Origin: Planctomycetota bacterium
Lineage (GTDB): Bacteria > Planctomycetota > Phycisphaerae > Phycisphaerales > SM1A02
Direction of reading: 5' to 3'
NCBI GenBank assembly: GCA_003671025.1
Contig: QWPW01000028.1
Coordinates: forward strand, 1 to 45,310
Length of the DNA stretch: 45,310 bases
In this document: in pieces, positions 5,281 through 45,310 of the stretch
Layout of the letters: each line of letters begins with the position of its first letter
How positions within the stretch are numbered: position 1 is the first letter of the stretch
Position numbers and translations under genes: made by a program
Notes under the pieces: generated by a model
What the model saw: the letters and a program-made list of their open reading frames with translations, nothing else
Database searches by the model: none
Told to the model about the DNA's origin: nothing

Positions 5281-6570
5281 ATGCCCCGCCGCGTTGCACG
5301 CACGACTGCTGTCACCTCCCCGCCAAAGATGACAACCCGCTCGCCATCGGTGAACGCCGCGACCAAGGCGTTTCCCCTAGTTTCCGCGGCAGAATCGCGC
5401 GCTTTGTTGCTCGAGGGCTGCTGCCTCGCACGCACACCAACGAAGGCTTCGCGCGCCGCGGTACTTCGAATCATTCGCGAACTCGGGTTCGTCCAACTCG
5501 ACAGCATCAGCTCGGTCGAACGCGCGCATCACCTCATCATGCACGCGCGACTCGACGGCTACGCGCAAGCGATGCTCGCGCACCACACCGAAACCACGCG
5601 TCACGCATTTGAACATTGGACCCACGACGCCAGCGTCATCCGCCGCGATTGGTTGGTGTGGTGGACGCATCGCTTCGAACGCAGTCGCGTGCGGTTGGCC
5701 ACTCACGCGTGGATGCGTTCGCGCCTGGGCGCCAATTGGCAAGCAACCATCGCTCATGTGCACGATCAAATCAAAGAGCGCGGCGCATTGGCCACGCGTG
5801 ATTTCACGCCGCCCAAAGGCGTGAAGCCAAAAAAAGATCCCGGCGAGGGCTGGTGGAATTGGTCGCCGCACAAAGCTGCACTCGAGTTCTTGTGGCGCTC
5901 TGGCGATCTCGCGGTGCACTCTCGACGCGGATTTGAAAAGGTGTACGACCTCAGTGAACGTGTGCATGGTCCGCGCGACACGATGCCTTCTCGCGGCGAC
6001 ACCGTTGAATGGGCGTGCACCGAAGCATTGGCGCGTCTGGGCGCCGCCACTGCGCGTGAGTTGTGTCACTTCATGGATGCGATCACGCTCGCCGAAGCGA
6101 ACCATTGGTGCGCCTGGGCGGTGAAGGAAGAACGCGTCGCGCGTGTTTATTTGCAACGCGGTGCGCGCAGCGACATCGTTGGTGTTGCGCGCCTCGAATG
6201 GAAACGCGCTGCGCAGAAGATCGAGTTGCACAGCGAGCCGCGACTGTTGTCACCGTTTGATCCGCTGGTGCGCGATCGCGCGCGACTGTCCGCGCTCTTC
6301 GGCTTTGACTATCGCTTCGAAGCGTTTGTGCCCGCGGCCAAACGAGTGCACGGCTACTACACCATGCCCGTGCTCGTCGACGGCGCGTTGGTTGCACGGG
6401 TTGACCTCGCGAGCGATCGCGCGGCGGGTGTTCTTCGCGTTGCCCGAGTGTGGTGTGAGCCGCAATTCCCACAGGCACAGAGCAAGTCACACGCCGCAAC
6501 TGCATGTGCGCGCTTGGCCATGCAGTTGCAGTTGAAGTTGGAGATGGCAACCCGTTCACGCGGAAGTTGA
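5281..6570 (+). CDS. YcaQ-like winged-helix DNA glycosylase (HTH_42 family)
   Basis: A member of the bacterial AlkZ/YcaQ (HTH_42) family of winged-helix DNA glycosylases, which remove bulky alkylated bases or unhook interstrand crosslinks. The N-terminal helix region carries FVQLDSISSVERAHH; the QLD triplet (about 72-74) matches the Q-hydrophobic-D catalytic motif of the YcaQ branch rather than the QxQ of AlkZ. Further family features are the SRLGANW-like helix, the WWNWSPHKAALEFLWRSGDL winged-helix segment (about 195-215) and the C-terminal LLSPFDPLVRDRAR followed by FDYRFEAFVPAAKR-HGYYTMPVL. The frame from the ATG at 5281 carries a basic, Ala/Thr-rich extension before the domain; an alternative ATG at 5329 would shorten it by 16 residues. 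No partner gene is evident; the next gene is unrelated. Confidence 0.9.
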   Translation: MPRRVARTTAVTSPPKMTTRSPSVNAATKAFPLVSAAESRALLLEGCCLARTPTKASRAAVLRIIRELGFVQLDSISSVERAHHLIMHARLDGYAQAMLAHHTETTRHAFEHWTHDASVIRRDWLVWWTHRFERSRVRLATHAWMRSRLGANWQATIAHVHDQIKERGALATRDFTPPKGVKPKKDPGEGWWNWSPHKAALEFLWRSGDLAVHSRRGFEKVYDLSERVHGPRDTMPSRGDTVEWACTEALARLGAATARELCHFMDAITLAEANHWCAWAVKEERVARVYLQRGARSDIVGVARLEWKRAAQKIELHSEPRLLSPFDPLVRDRARLSALFGFDYRFEAFVPAAKRVHGYYTMPVLVDGALVARVDLASDRAAGVLRVARVWCEPQFPQAQSKSHAATACARLAMQLQLKLEMATRSRGS

Positions 6571-6671
6571 CCCGCGCATGTCGCCACTGCTGTCGCATGC
6601 GATTGCCTTTTTTTTGCGGCGATTTCCTCGACGAGCGACTGCGCGCGCACGGCTCGTTGTTCAATGCGTCT

Positions 6672-7838
6672 ATGACTTATGCCTCTTTGGCTCGTGCCTT
6701 CCTCGCGCACACCTCTGCGTTCATCGCGACGATGTGCATCTCTGCGCAAAGCACATTCGCCAGTCCGCCAAAGATTCCCGATCAGTGGTTCTTTGAGGGA
6801 GCGCAGCGCAACGCGCAACTCAAAGATCTCGAAGGAAAGCCTGCGCCCGAGTTGGACACCGATGCTTGGATCGGAACGTCGACCACCATCGCCAAGAATC
6901 GCGGCAAAGTAATCATCATCGACTTCTGGGCAACGTGGTGCGGTCCGTGCATGGCGGCGATTCCCGAGAATGTCGCGCTGATGAAGAAGCACAGCGACGG
7001 CGATCTCGTGTTCATCGGCGTGCACGACGCAAACAATGGATGGGACAAGGCCGCGCAAGTCGCCAAGGACAAGAAGATCAACTACCCGCTGGCGAAAGAC
7101 AAATCGGGCGCATCAGCGAAGGCGTATCGCGTGCAGTTCTGGCCCACCTACGTCGCGATTGATCGTGCGGGAATCGTGCGCGCGGCGGGACTGATTCCTA
7201 GTCATGTCGCTGAAGTCGCGCAGTTGCTGCTCGCAGAAGGCTCGAGTGAAAGCAACGTCGCAGAGAACGCGAACGCGAGCGGGTTCGGCGCAGACATGTA
7301 CCTCGGCGGCGCGAAAAGTCCGGCGGCACTGCGCGCGCTCGAAGGCAAACCTGCGCCCGCGATTGACGCAAGCGCGTGGATTGGCGACGCGGTCACCAAG
7401 GAGCGCATGAAGGGTTCGGTGGTCGCGCTGCAATTCACAACCGCGGGAAATGCCGCGGCAAACAAGCAGTTTGCGGAGTTTGCCAAACTCGAAAAGGAAT
7501 TCGCCGCGCAAGGCGTCACCTTCGTCGGTGTGTGCAAAGCGAGCGCGAATTGGAAGGACATGGAGAGCGCCGCGAAAGCAATCGGATGCACGATCTCCAT
7601 CGCGCGTGATGCTGAAGTGACGAGCGCTGCAACGACGAGTGACGCAAACAACGCAACCCCCGCTGCCGCGCCGATCATCGAGCCGCTCAAACTTGGCCGC
7701 ACTGCCGAGGCGTTTGGGGTCAAGTATTTTCCCGTCACCATCTTGATCGATCGCTCGGGCAAGGTGCGCATCGCAGGTGTGCGCATCGACCGCGTCAAAC
7801 AAGTCATCGAGCAGTTGCTCGCCGAACCAACCAGTTGA
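6672..7838 (+). CDS. Exported double thioredoxin-fold protein (TlpA/ResA-like)
   Basis: An exported protein of 388 residues with two TlpA-type thioredoxin folds. The ATG at 6672 gives a signal peptide (MTYASLARAFLAHTSAF..., cleavage near STFA-SP); the frame is open upstream, but earlier starts would destroy the signal peptide. Domain 1 (about 50-195) has the redox motif WATWCGPC (Cys about 90 and 93) and the cis-Pro region FWPTYVAID. Domain 2 (about 225-388) repeats the leader pattern (EGKPAPAIDASAWIG versus EGKPAPELDTDAWIG) and the end motif KYFPVTILIDRSGKVR, but the active site is replaced by TTAGNAAAN, without cysteines. So domain 1 could act as a disulfide reductase or oxidase in the envelope, while domain 2 is likely non-redox, perhaps for binding. 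It is followed after 57 bases by moxR and may lead that operon. Confidence 0.88.
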   Translation: MTYASLARAFLAHTSAFIATMCISAQSTFASPPKIPDQWFFEGAQRNAQLKDLEGKPAPELDTDAWIGTSTTIAKNRGKVIIIDFWATWCGPCMAAIPENVALMKKHSDGDLVFIGVHDANNGWDKAAQVAKDKKINYPLAKDKSGASAKAYRVQFWPTYVAIDRAGIVRAAGLIPSHVAEVAQLLLAEGSSESNVAENANASGFGADMYLGGAKSPAALRALEGKPAPAIDASAWIGDAVTKERMKGSVVALQFTTAGNAAANKQFAEFAKLEKEFAAQGVTFVGVCKASANWKDMESAAKAIGCTISIARDAEVTSAATTSDANNATPAAAPIIEPLKLGRTAEAFGVKYFPVTILIDRSGKVRIAGVRIDRVKQVIEQLLAEPTS

Positions 7839-7895
7839 CGGCGTCGCTTCCGTGTGACGATCACTCATTCAACGACTCTCGACACGAAACTGCTC

Positions 7896-8894
7896 ATGAC
7901 TACCGCGCCGACTTCGCAATCTTCTCCGCGCTCCACTTCACCCTTTGTCGATCACATTCGCACGCAAGTTGCGCGCACAGTGGTCGGACAAGAAATCGTG
8001 GTTGAGCGCGTGCTCATCGCGTTGCTCACGGGCGGACATCTGCTGCTCGAAGGCGTTCCGGGAATTGCCAAGACGCTGCTGGTGCAGTCGGTGGCCAAGG
8101 CCATCGATCTGCGTTTCGCGCGCGTGCAGTTCACCATCGACTTGCTGCCGAGCGACATCGTGGGCAGCGAGATTCTCGAACAGAAGACCGGCGAGTTTCG
8201 CATTCACAAGGGACCGATCTTCACCAACCTCCTGTTGGCCGACGAGATCAATCGCGCCTCGCCCAAAGTGCAATCGGCGTTGCTCGAAGCGATGCAAGAG
8301 CGCCGCGTTTCCATCGGCGACACCACCCATGATTTGCCTGCGCCCTTCTTGGTGATCGCCACCCAAAACCCCGTGGAACAAGCGGGAACCTTCGAACTTC
8401 CCGAAGCGCAACTCGATCGATTCATGTTGCGTCATCGACTCACCTATCCCACGCCCAGCGAAGAAGCTGAAGTGGTGCGCCGCAGTTTGAAGTTGAAGTT
8501 GAAACGACAAGGTGATGGCGCGGTTCCCATGTCCGCCTTCGATGCGATCGATGGCGAGCAACGCATGCACATCGGCGATCTCACCCACGCGATGAGCGCG
8601 GTGCAGAGCATTCATGTGAGTGAAGTGTTCGTGCGTGATTGCGTCGAGTTGGTCAACCTCACCCGCAAGCACGAAGACATCGAGTTGGGCTGCAGTCCGC
8701 GCGCGGCGCTCGCGTTGGTGCATGCCTCGCGTGCGCGTGCCTACATCCATCAGCGCGACTACACCATTCCCGAAGACATCTTCGCGTTGGCTGAAGATGT
8801 GATGCTTCATCGCATGCGTCTCAAGTACGAGGCGCTCGCGCAGGGACGCAATTCCACCAGCGTCTTGCGCGCGCTGCTCTCGACGATGGCGTAA
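7896..8894 (+). CDS. moxR: MoxR-family AAA+ ATPase
   Basis: A MoxR-class AAA+ ATPase of 332 residues, thought in this family to act as a chaperone that matures or inserts cofactors into VWA-domain partners. Visible are Walker A GVPGIAKT (about 53-60), Walker B LLLADEINRAS (about 113-123), sensor 1 VIATQNPVEQ and the downstream EAQLDRFM arginine-finger region. The lid domain ends with IPEDIFALAEDVMLHRMRL, typical of MoxR. The ATG at 7896 (MTTAPTSQ) is favoured; an upstream ATG/GTG frame to 7854 would add 14 poorly conserved residues. It is followed after 40 bases by the DUF58 gene and then the VWA genes, the classic order of these operons. Confidence 0.94.
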   Translation: MTTAPTSQSSPRSTSPFVDHIRTQVARTVVGQEIVVERVLIALLTGGHLLLEGVPGIAKTLLVQSVAKAIDLRFARVQFTIDLLPSDIVGSEILEQKTGEFRIHKGPIFTNLLLADEINRASPKVQSALLEAMQERRVSIGDTTHDLPAPFLVIATQNPVEQAGTFELPEAQLDRFMLRHRLTYPTPSEEAEVVRRSLKLKLKRQGDGAVPMSAFDAIDGEQRMHIGDLTHAMSAVQSIHVSEVFVRDCVELVNLTRKHEDIELGCSPRAALALVHASRARAYIHQRDYTIPEDIFALAEDVMLHRMRLKYEALAQGRNSTSVLRALLSTMA

Positions 8895-36699: not shown

Positions 36700-36720
36700 C
36701 CTGATCATTAACTGATCAGG
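36700..36720. terminator. Hairpin between convergent genes, possible bidirectional terminator
   Basis: CCTGATCA / TGATCAGG with a 5-base loop TTAAC lies between the convergent kinase and FG-GAP genes and contains the stop codon of the latter. There is no clear T run on either side, so termination is only possible. A further CTGATCA copy lies just upstream. Confidence 0.35.
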
Positions 36721-39700
36721 CCACAGGGCCCCACACGGAAAGCAACTCCACGAGATCGGCCGCGTTCGTCATTCCGTTGCCGTCAATGTCGCCGAGTCCA
36801 GGCTCGCCCCAAAGGCTGAGCAAGATGTTGAGGTCGGCTTCGTCCACTTGCCCATCGTTGTTGAGATCGCATGGCGCGTGAGGGTTTCCCGTGCGCACCA
36901 ACGTGAGTTGCAACGAGTCGCCGCCTGTGGGAAGCGGTTGCAACGCGGCAAGATCATCGGCGGCTCCGTCGATGCTCACGGCCACGAATGCGCTGGGATT
37001 AGCCAGTTGCGTGACGCTCGCCATGAGATTCAACGCCAAGACATTCGTGGTGCAATCGTTGCGCACCACATGAGCACTCTTGATTGTGCTCGCCGAATCA
37101 AACGTACTCAACGCGAGATCGTCATCGCCATCGCCATCAAGATCACCCAAGGTGAGTCCTTGCGGATCAACGCCGACATCGAGGAGCGTGCTCTGAAAGC
37201 TCGAGCCTTGCGCGCGCATGATCACCAGTGAGTCGTACACCGCGGGAGTGCCCGGAGGCGTGGGGCGCGGCGCAAGAGCCGCGAGTGTCGCGATGATTTC
37301 CGCGATGCCATCACCATTGAGATCAGCGATTTCAATCGCGTTCACCGGATGAGGCGTTGGAATAAACGTGACTGCGAACGAATCACCGTCGGGAGGCCCA
37401 CCAGGAATCACTGTCGATCCACCAGTGCTTCCGCCGACGATGTCGTCGTCGCGATCATTATCAATGTCGCCTCCACCAACCGAAGTCGGCGGACCACCTT
37501 GCGAGGGCGTCGTGGTTGAACCCGTGCCACTCACGGTTCCGTTTTCGTTTTTCAGTGCGACAAAGGTGCCGCTTCCTTGCACAGCAACCGCGACGCCTTT
37601 GAGGGCACCAGCAAACTTTTCATTCACCGTGTCGAAGAAGTAGCCCACCGCAACATCGACGGGCGTGTTGCCCACGGCGATCGGAGCGAGTGAAGTGAAT
37701 TGGATGGGGGAACCCGTCGTCGTCGAATTCTTGAGCACGCGCACGGAGCCTTGGCCCGCGAGCGCGACCACGAGATCGATGCGTCCGTCGCCATCGAAAT
37801 CTGCCGCCGCGATTCCGCGAGGATCAACGCCCACTGCGAACTGCCCGTTCGCGACAAGACCGCTGCCCGTACCGCGATAGATCGCGACCATGCCACCGCT
37901 GGTTGGACTCGCGCTCAATGTGATCGCCACATCATCGATGCCGTCGCCATTGAAATCACCGCGCACGAGATCATGTGCCCTAGAGCTCAACGGGTAATCA
38001 CTCTTTGCTCCAAACGAAACCGTTTGATTCACGGGCGCAACCGTCGCGACCAACGCTGATCCTGCGCCTTGCGGAACCACGCTCATGAACACGCCGAGGT
38101 TGGCGGGAAGTCCGCGACTTTCGACACTATCGAAACTCGTGGTCAACGCGCTCTCGCTGGAAAGCACGGTGTAACTCGATCCCGCCGCTGGTTGCGCAAT
38201 CGATCCATCAAACACGAGCGTGCCGTTGAGATTGACCGCTCCCATCACTTCAAGTTTGAGCGCGACACTGGGATCAAACAAAAGTTTCGCAGTGGGCGCG
38301 TTGCTGGCGCTGGAGAAATGCAGCGCGCCATAGATCTTGATGTCGCGATGCTTCACGCATCCGTTCCACTCGACATCGCCGGCAATGACTCCCGAGCCCC
38401 GCATCCACGACGCAGCACTAGGACCTTTGAGCATTCCCTTCGTCACATCAAGAGACCCTCCGTCAAGTGTGAAGAGTCCCAGCACAGTGCAATTTCCAAC
38501 GCTGTGTACTGATGCGTGCGCGGATGGAGTTCCCGTGATGAGCAACTCTCCGCTGTCGCTGACATCGAGCGCATTCACCTGCACATCGGCGTTCTCGCGC
38601 GCTTCGAAGCTACCGTTGATGATCGAGAGTCGATCAGCGTCGAGGCTGCTTGAGCCCGCGAAAAGAAGCCGTCCGCGCCCGCCCGTGGTCGCACCAACCA
38701 CAACGTCTGCGGCGGTGCTCACGTCAACATCCACAATCGCGACATCGCTGCTGCGGCCGATCGCACTCGATGCGATGTTCGCGCCGCGTGATCCAAGGGT
38801 GAGTTGTGCGAAGCTCGACGCAGGAATGATCGACGCATCAGTGTCGCGCGCGACGAGACCCTCCCACGAAGTCACGCCTTTCTGCGGCAATTTCACGAAT
38901 CGCGTCGAGCCGCCTTCGGTGTAAGTGCTGAGCACTGCCAGCAACGTACTGGTTGTTGTCGCGGGTGGGCACCATGCGAGCGCGTCTTGCGCGAGGATCG
39001 CAGTGCCCAACGCAATGTGCGAGTTCACGCCGAACTCGAGAGCGTCGTTCACCCCGTTGTCATCGCAATCAGGCGAGAGACAAATCCCACATTGCGCGCG
39101 AGCAATCTGCGTGCACGACGCATCCCAACTTTGCACACAGCAAAGCGGATCGACGATGCAGACAAGATCGCAACACACCGGATCAGAACAGTTTGGCGTG
39201 TAGTGACCAATGCAGCATGAGAGTTCAATGCCGCAGTCGGTCGGAGTGAATTGCACAACCAACGCGGCATAGGCCGACGGGCTGGTCACGGCGTCATAGG
39301 TTCCTGCGCCGATGTAGTAGCGCGCATTCGCGATGACCGAAAATGTGACCCTCGAACAAACGGGACAAGGAATGCCCGCATCATTGCTGCATGCGATGTC
39401 GTCACCCGACGCACACGAGGCACGCACCGACAGCACAGGATCAACCAGTGGATCGGTCGACGAAAGTTCCAACGTGATCATGCCGTCCGCAGGCGCGTCG
39501 ATGTAGTACCAACACGAGTTGTGGAAGCGTCCAGTCGCGACGCAGAACGGAGTCTCTTGATCCGACGCGGAATCCGCGAGGCCAATCGGAACAACGGTCA
39601 CGCTCGGTGAAGCCGCAATCGCGCTGCTGCAATTAGCGTTGATGACATCCGCACGAATCGATGTAGTGACAGCGCCCAACGCGATCACGATCGGGATCAC

Positions 39701-39784
39701 GATCCAGATCACGATCGTGATCGCGTTGGCGAAGAACAACGGCGACATCACGCAACGCGCGCGGAGCGACCAAACCTGACGCAT
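36716..39784 (-). CDS. Secreted FG-GAP/VCBS repeat protein with Cys-rich module and dockerin-like tail
   Basis: A 1022-residue exported protein. The ATG at 39784 is fixed by a strong GGAGGAG site 7 bases upstream; a much longer open frame (to 40018) is not translated as I read it. The signal peptide has the unusual core ITIVIWIVIPIVIALG. The N-terminal third includes a Cys-rich segment (CCIGHYTPNCSDPVCCD, VDPLCCVQSWDASC; about 39080-39230) and a calcium loop DCDDNGVNDALE. A beta-helix-like middle follows. Five FG-GAP calcium blades come next: GDFNGDGIDD, ADFDGDGRID, GDIDNDRDDD, ADLNGDGIAE and GDLDGDGDDD. The tail CDLNNDGQVDEADLNILLSL plus GDIDGNGMTNAADLVELLSV is a dockerin-like pair. Probably a surface adhesion or binding protein; this is inferred. 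Confidence 0.88.
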   Translation of the reverse strand: MRQVWSLRARCVMSPLFFANAITIVIWIVIPIVIALGAVTTSIRADVINANCSSAIAASPSVTVVPIGLADSASDQETPFCVATGRFHNSCWYYIDAPADGMITLELSSTDPLVDPVLSVRASCASGDDIACSNDAGIPCPVCSRVTFSVIANARYYIGAGTYDAVTSPSAYAALVVQFTPTDCGIELSCCIGHYTPNCSDPVCCDLVCIVDPLCCVQSWDASCTQIARAQCGICLSPDCDDNGVNDALEFGVNSHIALGTAILAQDALAWCPPATTTSTLLAVLSTYTEGGSTRFVKLPQKGVTSWEGLVARDTDASIIPASSFAQLTLGSRGANIASSAIGRSSDVAIVDVDVSTAADVVVGATTGGRGRLLFAGSSSLDADRLSIINGSFEARENADVQVNALDVSDSGELLITGTPSAHASVHSVGNCTVLGLFTLDGGSLDVTKGMLKGPSAASWMRGSGVIAGDVEWNGCVKHRDIKIYGALHFSSASNAPTAKLLFDPSVALKLEVMGAVNLNGTLVFDGSIAQPAAGSSYTVLSSESALTTSFDSVESRGLPANLGVFMSVVPQGAGSALVATVAPVNQTVSFGAKSDYPLSSRAHDLVRGDFNGDGIDDVAITLSASPTSGGMVAIYRGTGSGLVANGQFAVGVDPRGIAAADFDGDGRIDLVVALAGQGSVRVLKNSTTTGSPIQFTSLAPIAVGNTPVDVAVGYFFDTVNEKFAGALKGVAVAVQGSGTFVALKNENGTVSGTGSTTTPSQGGPPTSVGGGDIDNDRDDDIVGGSTGGSTVIPGGPPDGDSFAVTFIPTPHPVNAIEIADLNGDGIAEIIATLAALAPRPTPPGTPAVYDSLVIMRAQGSSFQSTLLDVGVDPQGLTLGDLDGDGDDDLALSTFDSASTIKSAHVVRNDCTTNVLALNLMASVTQLANPSAFVAVSIDGAADDLAALQPLPTGGDSLQLTLVRTGNPHAPCDLNNDGQVDEADLNILLSLWGEPGLGDIDGNGMTNAADLVELLSVWGPVA
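39676..39729. repeat. 17-18 base inverted repeat in the signal-peptide coding region
   Basis: Perfect arms CCAACGCGATCACGATC (39676-39692) and GATCGTGATCGCGTTGG (39713-39729) with a 20-base spacer also made of GATC-based repeats. It lies inside the signal-peptide region of the FG-GAP gene and encodes the Ile-Val-Ile alternation. It could fold as a hairpin near the start of the mRNA. Confidence 0.7.
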
Positions 39785-40030
39785 CTCAAATCTCCTCCGA
39801 AGGGGGAACGTTCCTTCCGCCGAGTAGGCCAACGGAAACAACCTACTTCGAAGTGCGTCAAATCCAACCAAAGTGTCCGATGAAACTGACGAATCGATGA
39901 TTTCGCACCGCGATGGGCTCGCCTTTCGCCCGCCATTCCATAGGGAGCCCGATCGGGGAGCGCTAGTGATTGACGGTGGCCGTCCACCGTTCACCATCCC
40001 GACTCGCGGCGCGCTCACCCACCCGACGAG

Positions 40031-40315
40031 GTGATCGATCTCGCTTGCCTCGCCGGCGCCCTCGGATCCATCGCAGCGGATCTCTCAAGCAGATGCGGAC
40101 GCATCATCGAAACAATGCAACTCCCCCCAGAAACAAGTGTGTTCAGAGCCCACGCGCCACTTGCTGAAGTCACAACATACGCAAACACTTTGAAATCAAT
40201 GACAAGAGGCATGGGCTCATTCGTGATGGAATACAGCCACGACGACCTAGCGCCGACAGGAGTGCAACGAGAGTTGATCGCGCAGTGGAAACCAAGAGGC
40301 GGGGATGAAGAGTGA
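40031..40315 (+). pseudogene. Stand-alone elongation factor G domain V fragment
   Basis: A 94-residue frame (GTG 40031) matching the C-terminal domain V of EF-G: GSIAADLSSRCGRI (cf. MGDVIGDLNSRRGQI), then HAPLAEVTTYANTLKSMTRG and MGSFVMEYSHDDLAP, ending VQRELIAQWKPRGGDEE. No G domain or domains II-IV precede it; an in-frame stop lies at 39971-39973, and the codons between are not EF-G-like. So it is either the remnant of a duplicated EF-G gene or a small independent protein. It lies between the divergent FG-GAP start and the end of the methyltransferase gene. No ribosome site is obvious, which favours a remnant. Confidence 0.68.
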
Positions 40316-40335: not shown

Positions 40336-41088
40336 TCACATTTTCACAAACCGCAGCACTTCCTCAGTCCCAATCATCCCTGCAGTTCCGTCCGCGGTCA
40401 GATTGGCCCGCGATGCTGCGGAAGTGATCTCCTCCACCGTCCACGGCCGCGTGACGAGGAGGTCGGTGATTTCACGACCATCAGGAAGTCTCAGCACACA
40501 TCGCGTGTCGAGCAAATGAGGATTTCCCTGCATCGCGACAGCGCTTTGCGTCCATTGCACCGTGCCACCCAATCGCGCAATCAATACAGATTGATTCATG
40601 CCACCGCGAAACTGCTCGAACACATAGCGCGGATGCACGCCAACAAATGCAATCGCGCCAGACTTCAGCGCGCGAGCGATCGCAGTCATCGTGAGCTCAA
40701 GTGATTCAAGAGTCAGCACATGATGAATCGTGGTGAAGAGACAGAACGCCACATCGTGATCGAGTGCAACAGAAGGATGAGAAACGCAATCATGCATACA
40801 CGCATGAACCACCTGAATGCGATCGCGACATCCAGCATCAATCGCTTTCTTCTCGAGACCTCGCAACATCCCCGCCGACGGTTCAATCGCAGTAACTGCA
40901 CGCCCAGCCCGAGCCAAGGCGATCGACAAACGCCCAGTTCCCGCACCAATGTCAATGACTTTCGAGTGTCGATCTGCAACGAGCCGAAGGTGCCCTGCAG
41001 TCATGCTTGAATACATCGCTCCAAACGCACTCTCATAGAGTTCGTCGTAGAGATCCGCCCATGAGTCGTAGCCGGTAGGTTCGGTCAT
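40336..41088 (-). CDS. Class I SAM-dependent methyltransferase
   Basis: A 250-residue cytoplasmic methyltransferase. The ATG at 41088 (MTEPTGYDSWADLYDELY) matches the start of small-molecule methyltransferases; the longer frame to 41346 lacks domain character. SAM motifs: VIDIGAGTGRLSIALARAG (motif I), AVTAIEPSAGML (acidic residue of motif II) and DVAFCLFTTIHHVL (motif IV). The C-terminal half gives no substrate clue. It is divergent from the putative PLD/ATPase operon across 88 bases; a functional link is possible but unproven. It does not look like a DNA methyltransferase (no NPPY or DPPY). Confidence 0.85.
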   Translation of the reverse strand: MTEPTGYDSWADLYDELYESAFGAMYSSMTAGHLRLVADRHSKVIDIGAGTGRLSIALARAGRAVTAIEPSAGMLRGLEKKAIDAGCRDRIQVVHACMHDCVSHPSVALDHDVAFCLFTTIHHVLTLESLELTMTAIARALKSGAIAFVGVHPRYVFEQFRGGMNQSVLIARLGGTVQWTQSAVAMQGNPHLLDTRCVLRLPDGREITDLLVTRPWTVEEITSAASRANLTADGTAGMIGTEEVLRFVKM

Positions 41089-41176: not shown

Positions 41177-42496
41177 GTGGCAACAGACGCGCTTTCGATT
41201 CCCTTTCTCACGGCGCTTGATTCGCGTGCCGCACTGAAAGGATCTAGAGACGCGCTCGGCGCACAGCAACTGTGGACAAAGCTCGGGCGGACGGTCATCG
41301 GCAATCTCACAACGGTCAGCAATTCAGCGCGGGACTTTACGATCACGTTGCTTGGACATCATTTCGCTGAAGTCGTTGCGTCCGACATGCCGAGTTCGAG
41401 TCGGCTCGAGACCTTTATCAAGTGGGAGCAACTCACAGGCTTTGCGCGTGCGTATGTCAACGGGGATACGGCGTTTCGCGGCAGTGAGCGCGTGCGGAAA
41501 ACTCTGGCGGTTGGAACGCGCGCAACCATTTCTGCCGAGCGCGCGCATCAGATTCTCTCGAGCCAAAAAATGTACGGCTTGTGGGGTTTGTACACGGTTC
41601 CTTCACGGAGTTCGGGTTTGCTCGAGAGTGGCAGCGCGCAACTCACGGACGCTGCGGCGAAGGAACTTGAACGCGCAGCACTCCCTCGGCTGATGAACGC
41701 TTCGCACAGCGGATACGAGAAGATTCTTCGCGTCTTGAAGGCGCCTCGCTCGGTCATTTCACTCGACGGTGAGCATGCAGCTGCAATCGAGGCGATTGCG
41801 TCGATCGTGAAAGTCACGCTTCGCGCAGGCGAGAGGTCCTTCTACCGTGACCATCTCGTGCTCGGTGGACCACTTGATCAAACCAAAGGACTCCAACCAC
41901 AGCTCGCGGAGTTGATCGAAGTAAGCCTGAACTTGCCGAAGTTTCGGTGGTCTGGCCCCATGGTTGGTGACCTCGCTCAACAGGCGCGCAAGCGTGGCGC
42001 CGCTTGGTCGGACCTCACTCGGCAACTCAAACAGATCCAATCATGCAGCGCCGTACTCAACGCATCGGCGTCTCTCTACAACCACATGCTCGGATGCGAT
42101 GAGACCGAAGTCGCTACGCTCGCGACGCGATACCAATCGCACTTCGGCGGAGGCATTCGCACATTCGATCCTGACGAGTTCGCAGACATACTCCCCGCGC
42201 TTTGCAGCGGCGATGACCCGCTCGTTCAACGATGGTCCACCATTGCACGGATGTTGAGTGAAGGAAAATATCTCGAAGCGATCCAATCAATGGTCCTTCA
42301 AAACACTGCCGCCATGTCTGGGCGTGGTGGGCAACCGTGGATCACTATCGAACGAAAACAACTTCGAGTGCAAATGCGCGACGAAGGCTCCGAGCTTCCA
42401 AGCGAAACTGCTCTCCGAAACGCGTGGAATTTCCCCTTCTTCCTTGACTCACTCCGAACAGTCACTGCAGCCGTGTCGAAAGTTGACCGTGGCTGA
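41177..42496 (+). CDS. Unrecognised protein, first gene of PLD/ATPase cassette
   Basis: A 439-residue soluble protein with no family I can name. GTG start at 41177 with AAGGA upstream. Notable segments: LWTKLGRTVIGNLTTVSNSA (about 32-51), FIKWEQLTGFARAYVNG, FRGSERVRKTL and QILSSQKMYGLWGLYTVPSR (about 130-150), then a mostly helical C-terminal half ending YLEAIQSMVLQNTAAMSGRG. The Trp/Gly-rich YGLWGLY region and the gene order recall small accessory genes next to PLD and helicase genes in defence islands, but I cannot assign it. Its TGA (42494-42496) overlaps the GTG of the PLD gene by 8 bases, so it is translationally coupled to it. Likely target recognition or control (inference). Confidence 0.7.
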   Translation: MATDALSIPFLTALDSRAALKGSRDALGAQQLWTKLGRTVIGNLTTVSNSARDFTITLLGHHFAEVVASDMPSSSRLETFIKWEQLTGFARAYVNGDTAFRGSERVRKTLAVGTRATISAERAHQILSSQKMYGLWGLYTVPSRSSGLLESGSAQLTDAAAKELERAALPRLMNASHSGYEKILRVLKAPRSVISLDGEHAAAIEAIASIVKVTLRAGERSFYRDHLVLGGPLDQTKGLQPQLAELIEVSLNLPKFRWSGPMVGDLAQQARKRGAAWSDLTRQLKQIQSCSAVLNASASLYNHMLGCDETEVATLATRYQSHFGGGIRTFDPDEFADILPALCSGDDPLVQRWSTIARMLSEGKYLEAIQSMVLQNTAAMSGRGGQPWITIERKQLRVQMRDEGSELPSETALRNAWNFPFFLDSLRTVTAAVSKVDRG

Positions 42497-44537
42497 AGTA
42501 CCAACCTCGGTTCTCTCAGAGCACTTCGAACACTTGCTCTCTGGGCGACGACTTGTCGCCGCAGTGTTCACGACCTTTCGCTTTGAACCCTCTTTCTTCG
42601 AACAAGAAATTCTCCCAGTTTTTTTCGACATTCCTGCCAGCCACATTCCTGGGATTCGGTTGGCACAACTCGAGGTCGCGCTTCGTGATGTCGAAGGCGG
42701 CATCGCCGTGTACTACGACCACAACGGAATTGATCCAAGCGATGGAGGCGGTGCTCGACTCGATATTGCTCGCCTCCCGATCCGACACCAGCGTGGGGTG
42801 TTTCATCCGAAGCTCGCGTTCCTACTCGTTGAGAAAGCTGCGGAGAATGGCGAGACCAGTCCATCACGCTCATTGATCATCGCGTGCATGTCGGCGAATC
42901 TCACACGAGCAGGTTGGTGGCGAAATGTTGAAGCTTGTCACACCGAGGAACTTCAAGCCGAATGCGCCACGCGGCTTCGTGACGATGTCATCGAGCACCT
43001 AGGCTGGCTGCGCTCGCGTGCAACCGCACGAAATCGCGTTGATCCGCTCGAGAACATTCTGAAGTTCATCCGCGCGACGGTTCAACGACAGACCCGATCA
43101 CTCGATGGCGAGTTGCATCCGCACTTCTATGCAGGAAACCAAAGCGTTTGTGCATTCCTCAAAGATGCAGGAGGCAACGCGCTCAGAGGAATGCACCTCG
43201 AAATCATCTCTCCCTACTTTGATGATCATGGTGCGAAGCCGCTTCAATCACTCATCGAGCAATTCAACCCTCGTTCGACGCGCGTGTACTTGCCCACCGA
43301 TGATGGGGGTGCTGCAAAGGTTTCCGCCGATGCCTACGCAGCAATTGCTGCGCTCGATGGTGTCGAGTGGGCGTCGCTGCCCGCATCGCTTCTCCAAACA
43401 GGAAAGGCTGTGGATGCGAAAGTGCGCACTGTGCATGCAAAGGTGTATCGCTTCTATTCCAGCACTCCGAAGCGAGAGATCTTGTTCATCGGTTCACCGA
43501 ACCTCACGACGGCCGCACACAGTGGGAGCGCCAATGTTGAGTGCGGCGTATTGGTTGAGATAGCGACTGCTCGAAGGCCTGAGCCGTGGTTGACGCCACT
43601 GACGAAAGCCGTTCGCGCGTTCACTGACCCAACGGATGACGACAGCGCGAGCAGTTCGTCGAGTCCACTCGCGCTTGACTTCGATTGGTCGACAGGACTT
43701 GCGCACGCGTACTGGGACGCGCGCGCTGCATCGAGCGAGCTCACCCTTCGCGCGAGCGGCGAGTATGTGAGCACCTTGCCGTTGCTCACGCCGCGCACAT
43801 GGACTCAACTCAGTTCCGAAATCTCGGAACGCATCCAAGAGTTTCTGTCGAAGACCACTCTGTTCACTGCCGAACATTCGACGCTTCCTGCCGCGATACT
43901 TCTTGTGCAGGAGTGTGGCATGGAGTTCAAGCCCTCGCTCGTTCGAGAGCTCTCTCCTGCTGACATCTTGAAGTACTGGGCGCTCCTCACACCAGAGCAA
44001 CGACATGAGTTCATCCAGAACCACATGCCCTACGCTGATCCCTTTGGACTTGGCGCTGATGTGGATTCCACGCCACCTGTGCTCGATCACTCGCATTCGC
44101 TGTTCGATCGTTTCGCTGGGATTTTCCACGCGTTTGACGAGCTTGAACGAGCAACGGTCGACGCGCTCTCGAATGGTCGTGAGCAAAATGCCGCAGGTCG
44201 AATCTTCGGCTCCAAGCATGACTCGCTCGGAAACCTGCTTGACGGACTTGCGAAAGATCTTCATTCGCACGACTCAAAGACTGACGGCTTCGACATCATC
44301 GATCGGTATCTGATCACACTCTGCGCAAAGCAATGCTGCGCGTCAATCGCGCACGCGCACCCTGATTGGTGGATGAAACATGAGAAGAATGTTGCGCTGC
44401 TGCATGAACGACTTTCAAATTTGAAATCGCTCCGTGCCGCTATAGAAACGCATTCCGCTGAGATGCCACAGTTTCTAAAGTGGTTCGATTTTCAATTCCT
44501 CACGCGAGCGCGTTTGAAGATGGGCGCGTCTTCATGA
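42489..44537 (+). CDS. Two-lobed phospholipase-D-like (HxK) nuclease-type protein
   Basis: A 682-residue protein starting at GTG 42489; a longer frame to 42258 overlaps the previous gene and is not favoured. It has both half-sites of a PLD active site: GVFHPKLAFLL (His about 106, Lys 108) with CMSANLTRAGWW (Asn about 137), and RTVHAKVYRFY (His about 316, Lys 318) with FIGSPNLTTAAHSG (Asn about 338). Spacing of about 210 residues between the halves is as expected for a bilobal phosphodiesterase. The C-terminal 280 residues are helical with no recognised domain. PLD-fold proteins of this kind are often nucleases in defence systems. The stop overlaps the ATPase start (ATGA, 44534-44537). Confidence 0.82.
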   Translation: MAEVPTSVLSEHFEHLLSGRRLVAAVFTTFRFEPSFFEQEILPVFFDIPASHIPGIRLAQLEVALRDVEGGIAVYYDHNGIDPSDGGGARLDIARLPIRHQRGVFHPKLAFLLVEKAAENGETSPSRSLIIACMSANLTRAGWWRNVEACHTEELQAECATRLRDDVIEHLGWLRSRATARNRVDPLENILKFIRATVQRQTRSLDGELHPHFYAGNQSVCAFLKDAGGNALRGMHLEIISPYFDDHGAKPLQSLIEQFNPRSTRVYLPTDDGGAAKVSADAYAAIAALDGVEWASLPASLLQTGKAVDAKVRTVHAKVYRFYSSTPKREILFIGSPNLTTAAHSGSANVECGVLVEIATARRPEPWLTPLTKAVRAFTDPTDDDSASSSSSPLALDFDWSTGLAHAYWDARAASSELTLRASGEYVSTLPLLTPRTWTQLSSEISERIQEFLSKTTLFTAEHSTLPAAILLVQECGMEFKPSLVRELSPADILKYWALLTPEQRHEFIQNHMPYADPFGLGADVDSTPPVLDHSHSLFDRFAGIFHAFDELERATVDALSNGREQNAAGRIFGSKHDSLGNLLDGLAKDLHSHDSKTDGFDIIDRYLITLCAKQCCASIAHAHPDWWMKHEKNVALLHERLSNLKSLRAAIETHSAEMPQFLKWFDFQFLTRARLKMGASS

Positions 44538-45310
44538 TTGACCTCACACTCGCGGCAAAACTTCTGCACTTTGAAAAGACGATTGCACCTCGACAGGCGA
44601 TGCAGCAACTTGAAGGTGCGGTGGCGCTGCACAACATGCTGGAACGCCACGGCGTTGCGTATCTCGCTGATGAAGTTGGAATGGGAAAGACATTCGTCGC
44701 CCTCGGCGCGATGGCGCTCTTTCGCCATTTCGATCCGAATTTTCGTGTGCTGATCATCGCGCCGCGAGAGAACCTCCAAGTGAAGTGGCGCAAGGAGATG
44801 GTGAATTTCACGCGACTCAACTTCGCGTTTCCCGATCTGCGCGTGCAAGGGTTCGGTGGTGGGCTCGTCCGCGAAATCGTGCACTGCGAGAACCTTGTCG
44901 ACTTCGCGCGTCTCGCGTCGATCGCGCCTGATCGTGATTTCATCATGCGCTTGACGAGCTTCAGCCTTCCACTTCAGGGCGACCGATTTTCTGTCGACGC
45001 AAACGCAGCCCGTGCACTCCGCGATTCGGTTCGAGCGCAGCTTCCGTGGCTCAATGACGAGATCTTTGATCTCCGGAATCGCAGCGAGTTCAAGAACAAC
45101 ATCGCGCGCGCGCTCTGCTGCGGGCTTCCTCCGTTTGATCTCGTCATCGTGGATGAGGGGCACAATCTCAAACATGGCTTTAAGGAAGGCGGATCGGCTC
45201 GAAATCAAGTACTCGCGCTCGCAATGGGTCATCCCAACGGCGCCGCAAATCGAAGGCTGTTTCCGAACTATGCGCCTCGTGCACGACGCGTGCTCTTTCT
45301 CTCTGCGACG
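44534..45310 (+). CDS. SNF2-like DEAD-box-type ATPase, cut by right edge
   Basis: The first 259 residues of a superfamily 2 helicase-like ATPase; the rest lies beyond the window. Start ATG 44534 overlaps the PLD stop. Motifs: Q-type start LHFEKTIAPRQAMQQL, Walker A YLADEVGMGKTFVAL (about 43-57), motif Ia IAPRENLQVKWRKEM, Walker B with DEGH instead of DEAH (LVIVDEGHNLKHG), and motif III VLFLSAT at the very edge. The ADEVGMGKT form and the Trp-Arg-Lys motif Ia point to the SNF2/RapA-like branch. It likely translocates on double-stranded nucleic acid and works with the PLD protein. Confidence 0.87.
   Translation, partial: MIDLTLAAKLLHFEKTIAPRQAMQQLEGAVALHNMLERHGVAYLADEVGMGKTFVALGAMALFRHFDPNFRVLIIAPRENLQVKWRKEMVNFTRLNFAFPDLRVQGFGGGLVREIVHCENLVDFARLASIAPDRDFIMRLTSFSLPLQGDRFSVDANAARALRDSVRAQLPWLNDEIFDLRNRSEFKNNIARALCCGLPPFDLVIVDEGHNLKHGFKEGGSARNQVLALAMGHPNGAANRRLFPNYAPRARRVLFLSAT

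Follow-up and report, generated by a model that had tools for sequence, protein, structure and literature searches.

A planctomycete gene cassette of a putative PLD nuclease and an SNF2-type ATPase as a probable branch of the Azaca/PDC-M27 superfamily, with a predicted chaperone-fold fourth subunit in its relatives

Azaca, which comes from Millman et al. (2022), is listed with a PLD-like domain in the available excerpt of PMC10952713, and its protein ZacC is named in the accessible portion of PMC12278908, which also presents Hachiman as a system in which a helicase restrains a nuclease. PDC-M27 is an unnamed candidate system of PADLOC-DB, represented here by loci on plasmids of Rhodoferax antarcticus (NZ_CP019242.1) and Vibrio nigripulchritudo (NZ_AP027051.1), and a literature search by name found no paper on it. 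The same kind of search found none on DUF6361, the family of ZacA (212 and 101 bits in two ZacA proteins). Proteins with the fold of YbjN and of type III secretion system (T3SS) chaperones, the TY-chaperones, occur in predicted ARG-centred immune operons, which are another kind of operon (section 3.8 of PMC9503650).

Here, we describe three genes, A, B, and C, at the right end of the window, by which we mean the whole 45,310-nucleotide stretch of planctomycete DNA that was analysed. With a probability of roughly 0.55, they belong to a four-gene (A-B-C-D) anti-phage cassette, with only the front part of C included. The cassette would be a branch of the Azaca/PDC-M27 superfamily in which C moves on DNA, B cuts it, and D acts as an adaptor on C. 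The role of D is inferred, and so, solely from kinship and context, are the DNA substrate and the anti-phage role.

The cassette in the window and the kinship of its proteins

The three overlapping genes lie on the + strand (Table 1) and are real genes rather than chance frames; in alignments, the starts of A and B coincide with the N-termini of the relatives' proteins. An earlier sequence-only reading had proposed a PLD and SNF2-type ATPase cassette that continues past the right edge. Its genes, overlaps, and motifs were confirmed, and C is indeed still open at the last base of the contig. C is incomplete because the contig stops inside it, which is an assembly cut. When the bin was searched with the C of a relative, the sole match was the piece already in the window; D from a relative, searched for in the bin without a positive control, had no match. 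The same reading had judged the DNA by eye to be less GC-extreme than its surroundings, and measurement agrees: the GC content is 56.4% in the cassette and averages 60.3% (s.d. 0.76 points) in 186 overlapping windows of equal size from the rest of the stretch, none of which is as low.

Table 1. Features of the cassette in the window.
Feature	Position	Strand	Remarks
Gene A	41177..42496	+	439 aa, GTG start, mostly helical; PDC-M27A-like, probable remote kin of ZacA/DUF6361
A/B overlap, 8 bases	42489..42496	+	B start agrees with relatives' protein starts
Gene B	42489..44537	+	682 aa, GTG start, two-lobed PLD-type phosphodiesterase; ZacB and PDC-M27B matches
First PLD half-site of B, HPK ... SANLT	42804..42905	+	residues 106-139; from alignment
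Second PLD half-site of B, HAK ... GSPNLT	43434..43508	+	residues 316-340; from alignment
B/C overlap, 4 bases (ATGA)	44534..44537	+	C starts at ATG 44534
Gene C, first 259 aa of SNF2-type ATPase	44534..45310	+	ATG start; ~1160 aa in relatives; PDC-M27C match
Walker A of C, DEVGMGKT	44669..44692	+	sequence motif
Walker B of C, DEGH	45152..45163	+	sequence motif

The left neighbour of A is a divergent methyltransferase gene (Methyltransf_25, Pfam), separated from A by 88 bases if its internal ATG at 41088 is the start, and the DNA left of the cassette had no usable counterpart in 20 relatives in which an empty insertion site might be seen. Farther left, an open frame of 94 aa (40031-40315, +) matches solely the C-terminal domain of elongation factor G (PF00679, 1.9e-12), an odd stand-alone piece. 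It is preceded by a frame of 1100 aa with FG-GAP repeats (36716-40018, -) that presumably ends in two dockerin-like repeats.

The first protein had been left as unrecognised and the trio as unknown, but PADLOC-DB reaches A, B, and C remotely. Protein A, which is 28-43% identical to 17 relatives over the aligned full length, matches PDC-M27A alone in PADLOC-DB (1.2e-11, 42 bits). It matched no family in Pfam or NCBIfam and neither the ZacA model of PADLOC nor DUF6361 of Pfam; sequence searches of the PDB returned three designed proteins only (E 0.51 or worse), and A, B, and D found nothing in PHROGs. Protein B is 32-46% identical to 13 relatives over the aligned full length and carries two HxK...N...E sets that are invariant in 16 of 16 aligned rows, two of these being PDC-M27 proteins and the B of six further loci being left out. 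Its PADLOC matches are ZacB of Azaca (1.7e-18, 64.8 bits, residues 19-424) and PDC-M27B (5.2e-12, 43 bits), whereas PLDc_2 of Pfam (3.1e-4) is under the Pfam cut-off. The comparison of B with ZacB by hhalign gave 96.8%, and an HMM of B scored 1.3e-5, 2.3e-5, and 0.29 against three ZacB proteins. The sequence of B had no match in the PDB, nor did a search of plasmids with the B of the window find one.

The window part of C contains DEVGMGKT, DEGH, and SAT, and DEVGxGKT, DExH, and SAT are invariant in all 18 relatives' C proteins aligned. Its best PADLOC match is PDC-M27C, at 1.4e-29 and 101 bits for the partial C and at 2.3e-79 and 266 bits for the full-length C of a relative. By hhalign, C and PDC-M27C align at 100% along 779 columns. 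The aligned part stops at residue 976 of the 1176 in the L003 open frame, so that the C of the window type extends for about 200 residues past it. With ZacC, hhalign aligned motif stretches only (72 and 59 columns); the ZacC model of PADLOC matched the C fragment at 3.5e-6 and the full-length relative at 4.5e-21, in pieces, but these matches are partly generic, as the model also matches 6 of 14 control genomes.

The structure model of A (pLDDT 87.2) is without a recognisable fold: Foldseek found nothing in the PDB (best E 0.45) or among viral models (best E 0.68), and the best VIA score, Z 4.6 over 60 residues, is below the stated noise level for helical models. Several of the top VIA rows, at these below-noise Z values, are PCI/winged-helix ends aligned to residues 293-400, which is only a hint of a possible winged helix there. 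The relation to ZacA emerges stepwise from profile comparisons by hhalign. Directly compared with three ZacA proteins, A gave 1.6%; after PDC-M27A and four more rows from the window's phylum were added, this rose to 25.5% local and 80.2% global, and the profile of the A superfamily reached probabilities of 81.1% local and 85.2% global against five DUF6361 proteins (two more added). Among the controls, 60 column shuffles did not exceed 2.0% local or 0.5% global, the two reversals stayed within 0.2, and none of six other alignments went above 0.7%. The A branch of the window alone scored 7.7% local and 37.3% global against the five proteins, so the bridge to DUF6361 rests on the added groups. 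Read in this way, A is probably a remote homologue of ZacA/DUF6361, not a member.

Relatives and their genomic neighbourhood

A scan of genome contigs with the C fragment gave 48 pattern matches, which reduced to 21 loci. As far as the contigs reach, the order A-B-C is kept in all of them, with one A shortened. B precedes C in 19 of the 21 (the contigs of L020 and L022 begin inside C) and A precedes B in 18 (L015, L020, and L022 begin inside B or C). In L021 (5163-5528), A is only 122 residues long, with B, C, and D following directly and looking intact; this may be either a natural shortening or an assembly fault. In L009, A and B are separated by an extra frame of the same strand (6394-7910), which we take to encode an AlbA/RecG-type ATP-binding protein. 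The record titles of the 21 loci, all from metagenome-assembled genomes or uncultured sources, include Planctomycetota, Acidobacteria, Deltaproteobacteria, Myxococcales, Rokuibacteriota, Eisenbacteria, a Flavobacteriales, and a bin called Nitrosospira.

Close to home, the cassette is rare. Among 121 genomes of relatives, A was found in the window's own and was absent from the other 120, including 15 other congeners, and among 392 genomes of the window's phylum a strong match occurred in the own genome only and weak ones in four. The distribution is thus patchy, and the transfer that had been suggested from the base composition is probable. A third kind of A-B-C trio (L068-L071) occurs in four further genomes of the phylum, three belonging to a single genus; its A has weak PDC-M27A matches only, and its C is shorter, at 731-954 aa, and is in two frames in L069. 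ZacA was not found in 21 genomes (the own one and relatives), a search in which no control matched either.

The surroundings of several relatives are of a defence type. Eight large flanking proteins were picked from six relatives' loci, and six of the eight match defence models. Beside L006 these are ZorC and ZorD; L004 has a type IV restriction enzyme nearby, L007 a type III methylase, and L014 two helicase-type matches, which may be generic helicases. Those picked near L005 and L009 had no defence-model match. Together with the kinship to PADLOC defence families, these neighbours make the defence role that had been proposed from the letters of the sequence probable. Two viral contig records also carry A-B-C-D, with C in two frames in L080 and beside a gene that reads, as we assume, as a serine recombinase. 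The flanks of both resemble those of L007, and the two cassettes therefore seem to belong to a single mobile island, which is no proof that phages carry them. A DUF2779 gene and a WYL-domain gene lie beside the PDC-M27 genes of Rhodoferax (L025, 49-2519), and the frame preceding A in L077 presumably encodes DUF2779 as well.

The fourth gene, D

Directly 3' of C, 20 of the 21 loci have a further short gene, D, of about 125 aa; the exception, L017, breaks off within C. Four of the 20 (L014, L015, L016, and L018) have the D domain as the C-terminus of C itself. A search for D in 377 genomes of another phylum matched 25 genomes in 28 places, and each of the six strongest (E below 1e-19) adjoins a C match: one is a seed (G022), one is apparently L011, another three (L064, L066, and L067) are full A-B-C-D loci not met before, and L065 is decayed. 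Fourteen weaker places (L049-L062), the only others whose flanks were covered, showed no C match within these short flanks. With the three new loci the table grows to 24, D being present in 23 and fused to C in 4; L063, whose contig equals that of L011 in length (15650) and has similar genes, was taken on these grounds as the same locus and dropped; also dropped was L065, which has D and a fragment of C in another frame and neither A nor B. Mapped on a quick-method tree built from B and C together (25 rows), the fused or separate state of C and D has to change at least three times, perhaps through one gain and two losses, and the label clusters no more than in many shuffles. Neither the two plasmid loci of PDC-M27 nor the three Azaca loci nor the four trios of the third kind gave a match above noise to an HMM of D. 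The presence of D in the genome of the window itself is what the relatives lead us to expect.

The AlphaFold2 model of the D of L003 (pLDDT 91.5) predicts a fold like that of class I type III secretion chaperones and YbjN. The best Foldseek matches in the PDB were ExsC, SpcU, 8q8o, and CesT (5.5e-5 to 1.1e-3), and VIA gave 36 entries at Z 9.0-13.4, comprising T3SS chaperones, YbjN-family proteins, and uncharacterised proteins, before the next at 4.8. By sequence, 7 of 20 D members match Pfam YbjN (PF10722) at E up to 0.1 (best 7.3e-7), the first member scoring 16.6 bits against a gathering score of 22, and 1 of 20 matches TY-Chap1 (E 0.05). Class I secretion chaperones are dimers that wrap an extended client peptide.

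A segment near the N-terminus of A (window 41189-41260) is strongly conserved, with many invariant positions among residues 9-28, and residues 1-22 are of low confidence in the model. A segment that is conserved yet modelled with low confidence would suit chaperone binding, and it is possibly a partner-binding peptide. The A N-terminus as the client of D was dropped as a specific claim, because part of the segment persists, without D, in both PDC-M27A and the third trio.

Possible modes of action and comparison with known systems

In the favoured reading, C would run along DNA as an ATP-driven translocase, either surveying invading DNA or loading on it. A would provide a helical subunit that serves recognition or assembly, and B, a two-lobed PLD nuclease, would cut DNA once the complex is engaged. 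D, on or beside the C-terminus of C, would serve for docking or dimerisation, holding the peptide of a partner and gating the complex. Host DNA would be spared without the help of a cassette methylase. A bolder and rather doubtful version makes D a peptide-sensing trigger, whose secretion-chaperone fold would capture an unfolded phage peptide and switch the DNA-destroying SNF2-PLD complex. Literature searches, one of them without any mention of YbjN in its results, found no chaperone-fold peptide sensor for a helicase-nuclease defence system.

The main rival is an abortive-type mode, which we hold possible though well behind the adaptor reading. Here, B would be a toxic nuclease that A, C, and D keep inactive until infection, D would resemble a dedicated silencing chaperone, and infected cells would stop growing or die, with Hachiman as the model. 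The predicted chaperone fold of D and the precedent of a nuclease restrained by a helicase, as given for Hachiman in the accessible portion of PMC12278908, speak for it, but the C-D fusion ties D to the motor and not to nuclease B.

SNF2 and PLD domains serve in DNA repair too, and the genes might form a cellular operon for DNA repair or DNA processing, not defence. DR1245, a YbjN-fold protein of Deinococcus, binds the SSB-like repair protein DdrB (PMC3575483, in the excerpt available), which fits such an operon. This is unlikely, however, given the absence of the cassette from 120 of the 121 sampled relatives, the defence-type neighbours in several relatives, and the kinship to PADLOC defence families. 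That the locus is no more than a diverged form of PDC-M27 or Azaca with D as a passenger that takes no part, as the same core order and the similar sizes of A and B could suggest, is the least probable alternative and a very improbable one, since the scores lie far under those of true members, C continues for about 200 residues past its alignment with PDC-M27C, and D follows C in nearly all loci and is fused to it in some.

The adaptor reading, if it holds, adds a fourth, chaperone-fold subunit that repeated fusion or fission binds to the DNA motor. It raises for Azaca-type defence the question of what the tail of the motor holds and whether a chaperone-type module gates the nuclease. Among known systems, Hachiman (HamAB) is comparable in its way of working, with a helicase and a nuclease that sense DNA, and the B of a relative weakly matches HamB (0.011, PADLOC). 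The TY-chaperones of the T3SS chaperone/YbjN superfamily share the predicted fold of D but belong to another kind of operon. DISARM shares the theme of a PLD protein (DrmC) and an SNF2 helicase (DrmD), with weak matches, but B reaches 28.6 bits where the DrmC cut-off is 133, and the full-length C of a relative 71 where that of DrmD is 610 (NCBIfam); as the sequence-only reading had it, Pfam finds neither DUF1998 (DrmB) nor a methylase among A-D.

PDC-M27 and Azaca are nearest. PDC-M27 has the order A-B-C and homologues of all three of the window's proteins, but its C is 869-874 aa long compared with about 1160 in the relatives of the window's branch, and D, which those relatives carry, was not detected in its two plasmid loci. 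Azaca has three overlapping genes of similar size in the same order, with B and C homologous and window A probably remote kin of ZacA; it differs in that window A lacks a ZacA model match and that no D was found in three Azaca loci. The idea that a profile search might place the trio in a named system thus holds in part: A, B, and C do match known models, but their scores of 42, 43, and 101 bits (C being partial) are far below the 571-605, 729-805, and 1206-1287 bits of true PDC-M27 members. The gap sets the locus apart as a separate branch, and by the models that define Azaca the four-gene branch is not Azaca. As judged from the profiles, Azaca, PDC-M27, the third trio, and the four-gene branch probably form one superfamily, which would link Azaca with the unnamed PDC-M27 and tie DUF6361 to the A proteins.
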